Shown here piece after piece: positions 6,923 through 11,363 of a stretch of DNA of 64,000 nucleotides. The notes below the pieces were generated by a model. That model saw nothing but the letters and a program-made list of their open reading frames with translations. It was not told the origin of the DNA and did not search any database. The stretch lies in the NCBI GenBank assembly GCA_016201065.1, contig JACQDL010000006.1, positions 1-64,000 on the forward strand, written 5' to 3'. The translations under genes and the position numbers were made by a program. Each line of letters begins with the position of its first letter. The stretch's first letter is position 1. This DNA is from Actinomycetota bacterium. GTDB taxonomy: Bacteria > Actinomycetota > Actinomycetes > Mycobacteriales > JACQDL01.

Positions 6923-7902
6923 TGGCCCGCTGGAACGACCGATCGAGCAGCCGTGGCTTCCCGCCGCCCTCGACGCCACGCCGCGTCGAGGGCGGCATCG
7001 TGGCGAGCAGCACCCGCGGTGACATCGGGACGTCGTGGTGGTCCAAGCGGTTCCTCGCCGTGTTGGAGTCCTTCGCGCTGGGGTCGCGGCTGACCAGGGG
7101 CAAGCGGTACGCCCGGCAGGGTCAGGTCATCTCCCTCGACGTGCTCCCGGGGGTCGTCTCGGCCCGGGTGCAGGGCTCGCGGCGGACGCCGTACAAGGTG
7201 GTCATCGGGCTGGCCCCGTTCACCGACGCGACCTGGGAGGTCGTCGACGGTGCGCTGGGCGGGCAGGCCCTGTTCGTCGCGCAGCTGCTCGCCGGACAGG
7301 TCCCACCCGAGCTGGAGGAGCTGCTGGCCGGGGTCGGCGTGCCGCTGTTCCCGCGGGCCGCGCGGGAGCTCCGGATGACCTGCTCCTGCCCGGACTGGGA
7401 GGTGCCGTGCAAGCACCTCGCCGCGACGTTCTACCTGCTCGCGGAGCGGTTCGACAGCGACCCGTTCACGATGCTGCACTGGCGTGGCAGGTCCCGGGAG
7501 GCGCTGCTGGCCCGGCTGCGAACGCTCCGCGATGAACACCCCGGACCGGGGCCGGCCAGCGGCACGGGTGACGGCACGGCGCCGCCGCCGGTGACGGGCA
7601 CGGCGCTGGCGCTGGCCGACCTGCTCGACCCGGCCGAACCCGGTCCGGAGCTGACGGCGGCCCGGTACTGGCACCCACCGGTCCCGCTGCCGCCGCCCGT
7701 GCCGCAGCTCGCCGTCCCCGCCGACCTGCTGCTCCGCCAGCTCCCCGACGCTCCGCTGGCCCTCGGTGGGGCCGACCTCACCGGGCAGCTGCGCGCCCTG
7801 TACCTTGCGCTGCCAGGCGAGGAGGCCGAACCCGCCCCGCCACCCACTGCCCGGTCCCGCACGCAGGCGGGCGCACCCTCCGGAGGCACCCGTGCCAGGT
7901 AA
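6922..7902 (+). CDS. SWIM zinc-finger protein, helicase partner
   Basis: A 326-residue protein with one SWIM zinc finger, Cys154-x-Cys156-x6-Cys163-x-His165 (CSCPDWEVPCKH). SWIM domains bind zinc and are thought to mediate DNA or protein contacts; pairing of SWIM proteins with SNF2 helicases in bacterial operons is established. The N-terminus (STRGDIGTSWWSKRFLAVLE) and the region before the finger match the conserved part of this helicase-linked group, while the C-terminal third is proline- and alanine-rich and probably disordered. ATG 6922 overlaps the helicase stop by one base, and the 3' end overlaps the next gene by 11 bases. It probably targets or regulates the helicase. Confidence 0.88.
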   Translation: MARWNDRSSSRGFPPPSTPRRVEGGIVASSTRGDIGTSWWSKRFLAVLESFALGSRLTRGKRYARQGQVISLDVLPGVVSARVQGSRRTPYKVVIGLAPFTDATWEVVDGALGGQALFVAQLLAGQVPPELEELLAGVGVPLFPRAARELRMTCSCPDWEVPCKHLAATFYLLAERFDSDPFTMLHWRGRSREALLARLRTLRDEHPGPGPASGTGDGTAPPPVTGTALALADLLDPAEPGPELTAARYWHPPVPLPPPVPQLAVPADLLLRQLPDAPLALGGADLTGQLRALYLALPGEEAEPAPPPTARSRTQAGAPSGGTRAR

Positions 7903-8599
7903 CCCGCCCGGCGGGCAGGAGCCCACCTCCGGCACGCCGTGCCGGAGCCTCGCGCAGCTCACCGAGAGCGTGGCCGAGGCGACGTTCCTGCATGCGCTCA
8001 CCCACGTCGGCGCGGGCCATGTGCGGACCACCGGCCGCAGCGGGGACGGCTCCGCTGCCGTCGTCACCGCGACCGTCGACGACCAGCCGCAGCGCACCGT
8101 CCGGCTCACCGCCACGACCGCGACCTGCGGCTGCACCGAGGGCCGCCGCCGCGACGGGTTCTGTGAGCACGCCGTCGCGGTGGCCATCACGGACATCGTC
8201 GCGGTGACGGGAACCTCGCCGGCCGACCTGACCGCCCAGTGGTTCGCCGCCCCGCCGCCCCGCCGCCCGCTGGCGGCCGCACCCGTTCCGGACCACGACT
8301 GGGACGACGAGGACGACGTGTGGGACGAGGACGAGGACTGGGACGACGAGGAATGGGACGACGAGGATGAGGATGACGACGAGGACGAGGACGAGGACGA
8401 GGACGATCCGGAGGAGCTGGGTGGGCTGGAGCTGCGCGAGCCGGCGGAGCGGGCCGCGGTCCAGCGGTTCCTCGACGGCCTGTCCGAGGTGCAGCTCCGC
8501 TCGCTGCTGCATGCCATCGCCATGGATCTGCCCGCCGTCGCCAGCGTCCTGATCGACCTCGCGCACCTCATCCACGTGGACCCGACCAAGACCGGGTGA
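7892..8599 (+). CDS. Second SWIM zinc-finger protein with acidic tract
   Basis: A 235-residue protein starting at GTG 7892, with CGGAGG five bases upstream and inside the end of the previous gene. A SWIM finger is visible at Cys79-x-Cys81-x9-Cys91-x-His93. Between about residues 135 and 175 there is an almost pure Asp/Glu/Trp tract, then a short helical domain (RFLDGLSEVQLRSLLHAIA). The acidic tract could mimic DNA or bind basic proteins; this is inference. It is the third gene of the helicase operon. The intergenic DNA that follows is AT-rich, marking the operon's end. Confidence 0.82.
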   Translation: MPGNPPGGQEPTSGTPCRSLAQLTESVAEATFLHALTHVGAGHVRTTGRSGDGSAAVVTATVDDQPQRTVRLTATTATCGCTEGRRRDGFCEHAVAVAITDIVAVTGTSPADLTAQWFAAPPPRRPLAAAPVPDHDWDDEDDVWDEDEDWDDEEWDDEDEDDDEDEDEDEDDPEELGGLELREPAERAAVQRFLDGLSEVQLRSLLHAIAMDLPAVASVLIDLAHLIHVDPTKTG

Positions 8600-8625
8600 C
8601 GGCCCGGGTCGATCAGCCAAATTCT

Positions 8626-8670
8626 GGTGGATTTTAGTTGTATAACCTCACATAACTTCATATATTGGCT
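8626..8670 (+). promoter_or_regulatory. AT-rich promoter candidate before the YeiH gene
   Basis: A short AT-rich island in otherwise GC-rich DNA, with several -10-like hexamers (TATAAC, CATAAC, CATATA) some 60-100 bases before the ATG at 8732. No convincing -35 element can be fixed. It is offered as the likely promoter of the exporter gene because it is the only such island between the two operons. Confidence 0.35.
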
Positions 8671-8731
8671 TGCCAGACCCATTCGCACTGCGGGGGACTC
8701 TCGGGGCATTCGTGCCACGAAGGGAGCTGGC

Positions 8732-10111
8732 ATGACCGGCATGGAGACCGAGGCGGACCAGGTAGGAAGCCGCTGGCGCGATCTGTATCGCAAGGAAGAC
8801 TGGTGGGCGGTCTGGGTCGGCGTCGGCCTGACCGCCATCGCGGTCGTCCTGTTCGAGACCGGCGCCACGAGCGCGCTCACCACGCTCGCCACCAGCGCCA
8901 GCAAGCTGCAGTGGACGCACCTCTCCCAGGTGGGTCACCATTTCGTCGACAAGGCCGGGGTGTACGCGGTCGCCTTCGTGTTCTGGGCGCTCATCCTCGG
9001 CGTCACCAGCCGGATCATGGGGGTGCGGCTGAGCAGGTTCCTGCCCGCGTTCGCCGTGGTCTTCGTGCTCAGCGCCGTGATCTTCGCGGTGTCCGGCTGG
9101 AAGAACGCCCGCACCTTCAACCTGGAGGCGCCACTCGTCGCGCTGCTCGTCGGCCTCCTGCTGGCCAACACGGTCCGGCTGCCGCAGTGGATGGACGACG
9201 GCTTCCGCGTCGAGTACTTCATCAAAGTCGGCATCGTGCTGCTCGGCGCCGGCTTCCCGATCACGCTCGTGCTCACCGCCGGCCCGGTCGCCCTGCTCCA
9301 GGCGACGATCATCTCGCTGGCGACCTGCCTGCTCATCTACTGGGTCGGTACCCGGGTGTTCAAGCTGGACCGACGCCTGTGCGCGGTGCTCGGGGTCGGC
9401 GGCGCGGTCTGCGGCGTGTCAGCCGCGATGGCGATCGCCAGCTCGGTACGGGCGAAGCGGGAACACGTCCTCACGACCGTGAGCCTGGTCGTCGGCTGGG
9501 CGCTGGTGATGATCGTCGCGCTGCCGCTCGTCTCCCGGTGGATCGGGCTCAGCGCCGGGGTGGCGGGCGCCTGGATCGGCACCTCGGAGTTCGCCGACGC
9601 CGCCGGTCTCGCCGCCGCGACGTCGTACGGGCACACGGCCGGGAACGAGCAGCAGGCCGTCCAGGCATTCACCCTGATGAAGGTCATCGGCCGGGACATG
9701 TGGATTGGCATCTGGGCCATCGCCTTCGCGCTCATCTCGACGATGTCCTGGGAGCACGACCGGGCGGCCGTCCGGCGCCGCGTCCACCTGGCGGAGATCT
9801 GGTGGCGCTTCCCCAAGTTCGTCTTCGGATTCTTTCTCGCCTCGATCGCCGTCACGCTGATCACCAACGGCTACCCCGACGCCGAGTTCACCTCGAAGGT
9901 CAAGCCGGGCCTCGTCGATCCGCTGAACGCCGTGCGGACCTGGGCATTCGTGTTCTGCTTCCTCAGCATCGGGCTCACCACCCGGCTGCGGGAGCTCCGC
10001 GGCGTCACCCGGAAGGAGTTCGCGACGTTCACCAGCGGCGTCGGGCTCAACGTCGTGCTCGGCTTCGTACTCTCGGTCATGGTCTTCGGCAGCTACTGGG
10101 CGGCCCTGTGA
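8732..10111 (+). CDS. YeiH-family putative anion (sulfate) exporter
   Basis: Polytopic membrane protein of 459 residues with about ten to eleven hydrophobic segments, matching the YeiH family (PF03601), annotated as putative sulfate exporters although the substrate is not well established. Family landmarks are EAPLVALLVGLLLAN, YFIKVGIVLLGAGF, VCGVSAAMAIAS and the closing LSIGLTTRLRELR. The start ATG 8732 follows AAGGGAG at a good distance; the frame is open to 8627 but the added residues are not family-like. The GTGA overlap at 10108-10111 couples it to a small cysteine protein. The nearby phosphoesterase and thioredoxin-like genes hint at sulfur metabolism, but that is only context. Confidence 0.88.
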   Translation: MTGMETEADQVGSRWRDLYRKEDWWAVWVGVGLTAIAVVLFETGATSALTTLATSASKLQWTHLSQVGHHFVDKAGVYAVAFVFWALILGVTSRIMGVRLSRFLPAFAVVFVLSAVIFAVSGWKNARTFNLEAPLVALLVGLLLANTVRLPQWMDDGFRVEYFIKVGIVLLGAGFPITLVLTAGPVALLQATIISLATCLLIYWVGTRVFKLDRRLCAVLGVGGAVCGVSAAMAIASSVRAKREHVLTTVSLVVGWALVMIVALPLVSRWIGLSAGVAGAWIGTSEFADAAGLAAATSYGHTAGNEQQAVQAFTLMKVIGRDMWIGIWAIAFALISTMSWEHDRAAVRRRVHLAEIWWRFPKFVFGFFLASIAVTLITNGYPDAEFTSKVKPGLVDPLNAVRTWAFVFCFLSIGLTTRLRELRGVTRKEFATFTSGVGLNVVLGFVLSVMVFGSYWAAL

Positions 10112-10356
10112 CCTCCGGCCGGACGGCGGCGGATGGCCGGCGACCGTCCTGCCGGGCCTGCGCGCGTTTCGTCGACGGGCCACGTGCCCTGGAGCGGGAG
10201 CTGCCGGGACTGAACGTCCTCAGCTCAGGCTTCGGGTCGGCCCGGGCCGACACCGGACTGTGCCTGGCCTGGGACCGTTTCCAGCCCGCCGGCCAGGCGT
10301 GTGAGCGGTTCACAGCGCGGCCCGGCGGTCCCGCACCTCGTGCGCCAGCGCGATGA
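10108..10356 (+). CDS. Small cysteine-rich protein coupled to the YeiH gene
   Basis: An 82-residue protein whose GTG start overlaps the exporter stop (GTGA), the classic arrangement of coupled translation. Four cysteines are spaced as CRAC near the N-terminus, then GLC and QAC, each followed by an aromatic-rich stretch (CARFVDGP, CLAWDRF, CERF). This suggests a bound metal or Fe-S centre. The pattern resembles small conserved actinobacterial proteins I cannot name. Its last 47 bases overlap the 3' end of the convergent LuxR gene; the cysteine part lies outside that overlap except for the final Cys-Glu-Arg-Phe. Coding is supported by the overlap and cysteine pattern, not by homology search. 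Confidence 0.6.
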   Translation: MTSGRTAADGRRPSCRACARFVDGPRALERELPGLNVLSSGFGSARADTGLCLAWDRFQPAGQACERFTARPGGPAPRAPAR

Positions 10357-11194
10357 GCTCCTCCCGGGTGTCCAGCCCCAGCCTGACCCTCATGTTGTGC
10401 ACGTGGTTGCGCACCGTGCTCACCGTGACGTGAAGCTCGGCCGCGATCTGCCGGCAGCTCGCGTCCCGCCCCAACAGCTCGAAGACCTCCCACTCGCGCC
10501 GGGTGAGACCGACGCCGTCGCGGGCGTGGTCGAGCCGGACCGCGAGGCGCGCGGCGAGACCCGCCGCCCCCGCGGCTGGCTCCCCCAGATCCGGCTCCCC
10601 CAGATCCGTCCCCCGACCGGCGGGCAGCTCCGGCCGGCGGGGCGGCTCGGACCCCGAGTCCTCGTCCGGGGGCGGCCGGTGGTGGACCCGCAGCTCCAGC
10701 GCCAGCGCCACCGTCACGGCCGCGGCAACCACCCAGACCAGCAGCACGGCCGGGCGGACCTGCCCGTTCTCCAGGACCCAGAGCTTCGTGACGGCACGTA
10801 ACGCGACGGCGACCGTGAACAGCCCCACCCCCGCCACCGCGCCCCACCGGCCGTACCGCGCGGTGAGGCGAAAGATCAGGATGGGGAACAGGACCGGGGG
10901 GATGGCCTCCGGATCCGGGATGAAGAGGGCGTAGCACGCGGTGGCGAGTCCCGCGTCCACGACCAGCGACAGGTGGTGCAGGCGCGGCGGAGCGCCACCG
11001 GGCCACGAAGCCGCCCGGGCCACGAAGCCGGTCCAGGCGGCACCTGCGCCGGCGACCGCGAGCGGGGTCCAGCCCGAGGGTGGATCAAAGACCACAGCCA
11101 TGATCACCAGCAGCGCCGACCCGACCAGCCGCAGCTGGCCGGCGATCCGCTCCTCATGTCGCAGGTACGCACGGTCGTGCCGGAGTTCGGTCAT
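10310..11194 (-). CDS. Membrane-anchored LuxR-family regulator
   Basis: A 294-residue protein with four to five hydrophobic segments in residues 20-165 and a C-terminal LuxR/GerE helix-turn-helix (about 228-290: LTRREWEVFELL, then CRQIAAELHVTVSTVRNHVH). A proline- and acid-rich linker joins them. There is no histidine kinase or receiver domain, so it looks like a one-component membrane sensor. ATG 11194 is preceded by GGGAGG at ideal spacing. It is divergent from the phosphoesterase gene, 169 bases away, and may control it; no operator can be singled out there. Confidence 0.88.
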   Translation of the reverse strand: MTELRHDRAYLRHEERIAGQLRLVGSALLVIMAVVFDPPSGWTPLAVAGAGAAWTGFVARAASWPGGAPPRLHHLSLVVDAGLATACYALFIPDPEAIPPVLFPILIFRLTARYGRWGAVAGVGLFTVAVALRAVTKLWVLENGQVRPAVLLVWVVAAAVTVALALELRVHHRPPPDEDSGSEPPRRPELPAGRGTDLGEPDLGEPAAGAAGLAARLAVRLDHARDGVGLTRREWEVFELLGRDASCRQIAAELHVTVSTVRNHVHNMRVRLGLDTREELIALAHEVRDRRAAL

Positions 11195-11363
11195 TTTTCC
11201 TCCCGGTAACCGTGCGGTCGCATTTCGGAGGATAAGCGCGACATTACGTCTAGTAAACTTCCGCGCCCCCGTCTATTGAGGCTGGACGCCCTTCCGGGCT
11301 CTGCTGTCCGCACGCGGACGGCCGTGGCCGGGCGAATGCCCATCAGGACTGACGGGAGCGACC

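Follow-up and report, generated by a model that had tools for sequence, protein, structure and literature searches.

The question raised by this locus is whether the short open reading frame directly behind an exporter gene of an Actinomycetota bacterium encodes a protein, and if it does, how that protein is related to the exporter. The window, as the term is used here, is the whole stretch of DNA that was analysed, 64,000 nucleotides long (contig JACQDL010000006.1, positions 1 to 64,000). An earlier note on this DNA had singled out the frame as a small four-cysteine protein and a possible accessory or sensor subunit of YeiH-family exporters. The relevant features are the following; loci collected in the searches are cited by L-numbers.

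8732..10111, forward strand: exporter of the PSE / Cons_hypoth698 (PF03601) branch outside canonical YeiH, 459 amino acids, assigned from PF03601, the TIGR00698 score and the exporter tree
10108..10356, forward strand: gene of the four-cysteine small protein, 82 amino acids, C-x2-C-x33-C-x12-C, with homologues behind the same exporter branch and purifying selection among relatives
10108..10111, forward strand: GTGA, the small-gene start overlapping the exporter stop (exporter TGA at 10109-10111)
10150..10161, forward strand: CxxC (C15, C18), invariant in 69/69 distinct cores
10261..10263, forward strand: third cysteine, C52, invariant in 69/69 distinct cores
10300..10302, forward strand: fourth cysteine, C65, invariant in 69/69 distinct cores

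In the reading of the open frames of the window, the small frame starts with the GTG at 10108-10110 and stops at 10354-10356. It encodes exactly four cysteines, C15, C18, C52 and C65, in the contexts CRAC, GLC and QAC. These had been described as regularly spaced; the three contexts are present, but the wording is loose, as the real spacing is C-x2-C-x33-C-x12-C. The last 47 bases of the frame cover the 3' end of the neighbouring gene (10310-11194, opposite strand), which encodes a LuxR-type regulator (GerE, E 4.1e-11). The overlap with the next gene, correctly remarked on before, is convergent because the LuxR-type gene is on the opposite strand. A scan for terminators and promoters in window positions 8500-11300 revealed nothing above chance. 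Further upstream, a long acidic run (E, D) was seen at approximately 8340-8450 of the window, in the frame 7766-8599.

The exporter in front is a member of PF03601 (149.7 bits, E 1.1e-43; the Pfam gathering cut-off is 24.5 bits). It had been called a YeiH exporter, a name that has to be given up, since its score against the YeiH model TIGR00698 is 75.7 bits and the curated cut-off of that model is 232.6; it represents a distinct PF03601 branch rather than canonical YeiH. Two of its relatives, L129 and L084, reach 72.5 and 88.4 bits against the same model. Searching the PDB by sequence with the exporter of the window gave no match.

Relatives of the small protein were searched for starting from the small protein itself. 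The first to be found were on two Caballeronia plasmids (E 1e-3, plasmid search), with three more in the phylum of the window (genome search). A search of 396 genomes with the window protein gave matches in 20 genomes at E 0.01 or less, and a strict motif scan of the 24 loci collected by then found the pattern only in L001, which is the window itself, L003, L004 and L005; the remaining matches of that search were treated as noise. A family pattern, derived from an alignment of five relatives and the kin of the window and holding no exporter sequence, was then scanned against genomes of 84,980 species, where 46 stretches matched and 29 loci were returned. They belong to Paraburkholderia, Burkholderia, Caballeronia, Nitrospirota, Actinomycetes and one Deltaproteobacterium, with one further locus. 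Each of the 29 loci from this exporter-blind scan has a same-branch exporter (49-59% identity to that of the window) just upstream on the same strand. Measured from the end of the exporter stop, the first usable start of the small gene ranges from 24 bases before to 98 bases after it; L055 is an exception, since the stretch examined contains none of the starts ATG, GTG and TTG.

To look for small genes standing on their own, a profile was run against two sets of genomes (138 and 150) from two phyla that the exporter searches had also covered, and no such orphan was seen among the 19 matches. Sixteen of these (E 2.5e-17 or better) are all located behind an exporter, including L158, where an exporter end lies at the contig start. 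The weak matches L171 and L172 are frames overlapping other long frames, as judged by eye, and L173 has an internal stop; another profile match, L165, reads through one stop. No relatives of the small protein were found in viral contigs and phages, the phage search having been made with one member only.

The reverse test started from the exporter alone and returned 60 exporters whose identity is about 40% or higher (L130, 39.95% identical by tblastn, is counted as about 40%). Three came from 198 genomes of the phylum of the window, three from plasmid records, 15 from 245 genomes of the phylum of L029, seven from 148 genomes of the phylum of L054, and 11 from 398 genomes of the phylum of L028, with 21 more from 150 genomes of the family of L028. 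Weak exporter relatives are under-sampled in this set because the E limits of the searches were 1e-40, 1e-60 and 1e-20. A small frame is located directly behind the exporter in 56 of the 59 testable cases (profile E 1e-15 or better, and also by pattern; L115 ends inside the exporter and is untestable), where the detection profile had been built from loci of the first scan, so that some matches are the profile's own members. For 11 of the 60, the small-gene DNA is the same as in a locus found through the small protein, and three more (the window and the two Caballeronia plasmids) were also already known; after removal of these 14, the small frame is present behind 42 of 45 exporters. The clade exporters that have no partner are L084, L128 and L129, and reading their downstream DNA in six frames by eye revealed no degenerate copy of the small gene. 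Since these three exist without a partner, the exporter fold can exist alone.

In a tree of 104 distinct exporters, the 76 members of the window's branch form one group (SH-aLRT 100), 72 of them with a partner, three without and one untestable; the tree was quickly built and contains several long branches, that of the window's exporter among them. The partial exporter L085 was omitted from the tree and has the partner, as does L026, the twin of L025. Outside the clade, the small frame was found behind none of 28 exporters (26 scanned by profile, two paralogues covered by the pattern scan). The small protein thus represents a conserved family whose gene order links it to one exporter branch. 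The expectation of the earlier note that a similar frame follows exporter homologues in other genomes is borne out for the window's PF03601 branch by both searches (29/29; 56/59). The proposal of an accessory partner of YeiH-family exporters holds as far as the gene-order link is concerned, but it has to be narrowed to this one branch.

Some loci hold additional copies. On the Caballeronia plasmids (L025, L026 6929-7390), about 2 kb beyond the intact pair, an exporter end with its small frame is present a second time in degenerate form, the last cysteine of the small frame being absent. Two loci, L034 (1848-2999) and L053 (4332-5489), carry behind the small gene a second gene resembling the exporter, with 27-28% identity to the exporter of the window.

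Alignment of the small proteins revealed no variation across the 69 distinct cores at the four cysteines, at one E and at one S. Three positions beyond the last cysteine, 64 cores have F, four have Y and one has H. In the pattern used for collecting the cores, the first cysteine, the third cysteine and an intervening G were obligatory, whereas the second position could be C or S and the fourth was left free. That G is not counted as invariant because the pattern required it, and L127, which was found by profile, is without it. The arrangement C-x2-C-xn-C-xn-C is present in all 69 distinct cores, and by eye also in the later members L126, L127, L130 and L131. In the true frame, comparison of 150 pairs of relatives (75 with distinct DNA) gave a median core pN/pS of 0.19, with 0.48 as the highest value; the window takes no part in this set, its nearest relatives being 57% identical in core DNA. 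For the same 150 pairs the medians in the two shifted frames are 2.03 and 1.67. The substitution pattern, which had been named as a test of the earlier proposal, therefore speaks for coding constraint.

The small frame sits inside an open stretch of 566 codons, and such stretches are common at high GC content, as would be expected if it were a chance open frame in GC-rich DNA. We give this explanation practically no weight, and reject it, in view of the homologues in several phyla, their linkage to the exporter (56/59), the invariant cysteines and the purifying selection expressed in a pN/pS of 0.19. The short frame reported earlier, with its four cysteines and the overlap of its GTG with the TGA of the exporter, is a real gene, as shown by homologues with invariant cysteines and by the coding constraint among relatives.

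A start codon overlapping the exporter stop is found in 39 of 69 distinct loci (ATGA in 21, GTGA in 17 and TTGA in one). This overlap is present in the window, in most Burkholderiales, and in Sphingobium and further loci drawn from the phylum of L028. It is present in none of the 15 listed loci from the phylum of L029 or its kin, where the first starts lie between 24 bases before and 82 bases after the exporter stop. No signal peptide was seen in the small-protein family. A hydrophobic helix C-terminal to the cysteine domain is encoded by L029 (one of 69 loci) and also by the later-found L158; the lysines preceding this helix would fit a cytoplasmic location of the cysteine domain. With the partner so regularly placed, we predict that the small protein is likely a dedicated subunit of the exporter. 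It would be made together with the exporter by coupled translation, would stay in the cytoplasm, given that no signal peptide was seen and that two members carry a C-terminal membrane helix, and would dock on the cytoplasmic side of the exporter.

The small protein could not be placed in a named family, as no convincing Pfam, NCBIfam or PHROG model was found: the matches to Pfam and PHROGs were weak and involved one to three members each (best E 0.03), and NCBIfam gave none. The sequence search of the PDB returned a single match to a lysine-tRNA ligase (E 0.76). Literature searches on YeiH and on sulfate/sulfite exporters, in which subscription journals were mostly outside the coverage, returned no title or abstract opening on such a partner. 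As far as the libraries and the literature searched go, the small protein is undescribed. On the Sphingobium plasmid pKN1 (L060 6333-6592), the small gene is located between the exporter and ferredoxin genes and is absent from the PLSDB gene table, which is stated to be incomplete.

The four invariant cysteines suggest a metal. An AlphaFold model of the window protein is of low confidence (pLDDT 62.7, pTM 0.45). When the 25 best Foldseek chains were re-aligned to it, five reached Z 2 or more: the HiPIPs 1isu_A (Z 2.5) and 1hlq_C (Z 2.1), and the glycyl radical enzyme chains 2y8n_B (Z 3.7, rmsd 1.6, 38 aligned), 9pzj_B and 4pkf_B (both Z 2.6). According to the warning of the alignment tool, a Z under 8 may reflect merely a common arrangement, and values of 2 to 4 are weak. 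Foldseek's own ranking puts 2y8n_B, which we take to be HPAD, first (prob 0.87, E 0.23), and the other 16 rows are unrelated. Judging from chain length and from residues named in the literature on such enzymes, chain B of 4pkf and 9pzj is presumably BSS beta. A second model, of L032 (30 sequences, pLDDT 67.4), gave no HiPIP-like or usable structural match. At the level of sequence, the HiPIP model PF01355 matched none of 24 members at E 10 or less with the HMMER filters on. An hhalign comparison with nine HiPIPs aligned 16 columns, which comprise the CxxCxxF turn only (probability 10%), with a score of 19.2; the best of 60 column shuffles scored 16.9. Direct homology to HiPIPs is not established, since the profile alignment is confined to the CxxC turn. 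Iron-sulfur is our leading guess rather than a result, because the Z values are weak, L032 is unmatched and the hhalign match does not extend beyond that turn.

The same accessory subunit could instead hold a structural zinc site, acting as a zinc clip that keeps the exporter together. One CxxC and two further invariant cysteines suit zinc equally, the family is present in soil Paraburkholderia, which are aerobes, and the L032 model has no HiPIP-like match; yet the rows at Z 2 or more of the window model are HiPIPs and glycyl radical enzyme chains, though at low Z. We consider zinc possible, but on the unlikely side. The explanation that we favour overall, and hold to be fairly probable, is a dedicated small cytoplasmic metal-holding subunit of the exporter, whose metal is most likely [4Fe-4S] and otherwise zinc.

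What the exporter carries may be approached through its relatives and neighbours. In Salmonella, YeiH is reported to be required for resistance to sulfite and to be the main factor in it, with its mechanism left open (PMC12880088). For Hyphomicrobium, passages of two others give yeiH as up-regulated 526-fold on thiosulfate and propose sulfite export (PMC11582611, PMC12423496). Within the window's branch, the L084 exporter is preceded by DsrC (124.2 bits, cut-off 53.5) and a DsrP-like frame (293.9 bits, cut-off 350), and the L129 exporter is followed by a DsrA-like frame (383.6 bits, cut-off 392.85); both the DsrP-like and the DsrA-like frame are cut off by the locus end. In these two loci (L084 2922-4343; L129 1-786), exporters of the branch thus stand beside genes of dissimilatory sulfite reduction, an arrangement that speaks for sulfite. 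As both exporters are without the small partner, they inform on the exporter branch and not on the pair. The exported ion would most likely be sulfite or a related sulfur oxyanion.

Also in keeping with sulfite, three Nitrospirota loci have a tandem rhodanese immediately in front of the exporter (L030 1435-2562, L033 1611-2543 and L047 1446-2411), with an export signal seen by eye in L033 and L047. A serine acetyltransferase, EpsC, is encoded upstream of the exporter on a Sphingobium plasmid, and in Paraburkholderia the pair is flanked by genes that by eye have no evident sulfur role. The rhodaneses, together with the dsr genes next to two closely related exporters without the partner, would fit a role in thiol chemistry rather than metal binding, in which the cysteines take sulfite or persulfide to the exporter or form a disulfide switch. 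Thiol carriers usually need one or two cysteines, and four that are invariant in 69 of 69 cores are a better fit to a metal site; this explanation appears improbable to us.

In Nitrospirota, the region upstream of the exporter holds genes for a response regulator of the sigma-54 type (scanned, L039) and for a histidine kinase (scanned, L048), with similar arrangements elsewhere by eye, and the operon is therefore regulated. The small protein might then be a regulator encoded together with the exporter, for instance a small sensor controlling the operon with no contact to the exporter. Against this speculation, Pfam and NCBIfam gave no DNA-binding signature, and the link is to the exporter, the other neighbours varying between lineages; we regard it as very improbable.

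Returning to the metal-holding subunit, the four cysteines would hold one metal centre, most likely [4Fe-4S] in a HiPIP-like fold and otherwise zinc. The subunit would probably serve in stabilising or assembling the exporter, which it would keep competent only as long as the metal centre is intact. A bolder and rather doubtful version is that a small HiPIP-fold subunit senses sulfite or redox damage through its [4Fe-4S] and gates the exporter directly, without transcription.

For this exporter branch, which rarely occurs without the second small gene, the finding provides a handle, as the pair can be expressed, purified and tested jointly. The small protein itself adds a family that is conserved over several phyla and missing from the libraries searched (Pfam, NCBIfam, PHROG). 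If the cofactor is iron-sulfur, the pair would represent a secondary transporter with an Fe-S accessory subunit, and we know of no other such case.

Compared with the canonical YeiH / PSE exporters (PF03601, TIGR00698, TC 2.A.98), the exporter of the window is likewise a PF03601 protein, but its branch forms a clade of its own with signature residues such as SEF.DA and GRD.W, a comparison that left out six rows (L059, L072, L073, L115 and two paralogues). Furthermore, this branch has a small partner, whereas the passages on YeiH mention none. With the HiPIPs (PF01355) the small protein shares a CxxC followed by two single cysteines, as well as the CxxCxxF turn aligned by hhalign. It differs from them in the gap between the second and third cysteine, which is 8-13 residues in the HiPIPs compared and x33 in the window protein, in being without GWC, and in the N-terminal export signals that those HiPIPs carry, by eye, and that the small-protein family is without. 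A further parallel is offered by glycyl radical enzymes, which according to passages of two papers have HiPIP-like [4Fe-4S] accessory subunits of 7-10 kDa (PMC12358834, PMC12590467). These subunits gave the best structural matches of the window model, a resemblance that is weak and absent for the L032 model. The partner of the small protein is a membrane exporter and not a radical enzyme, and by sequence the small protein has no match in the PDB beyond the one at E 0.76. Nevertheless, like HPAD gamma and the beta and gamma subunits of BSS and MASS, it is small and accessory to a large partner, and the C-x2-C-xn-C-xn-C stated in these passages for MASS beta is the same pattern as in the small protein (PMC12358834, PMC12590467).
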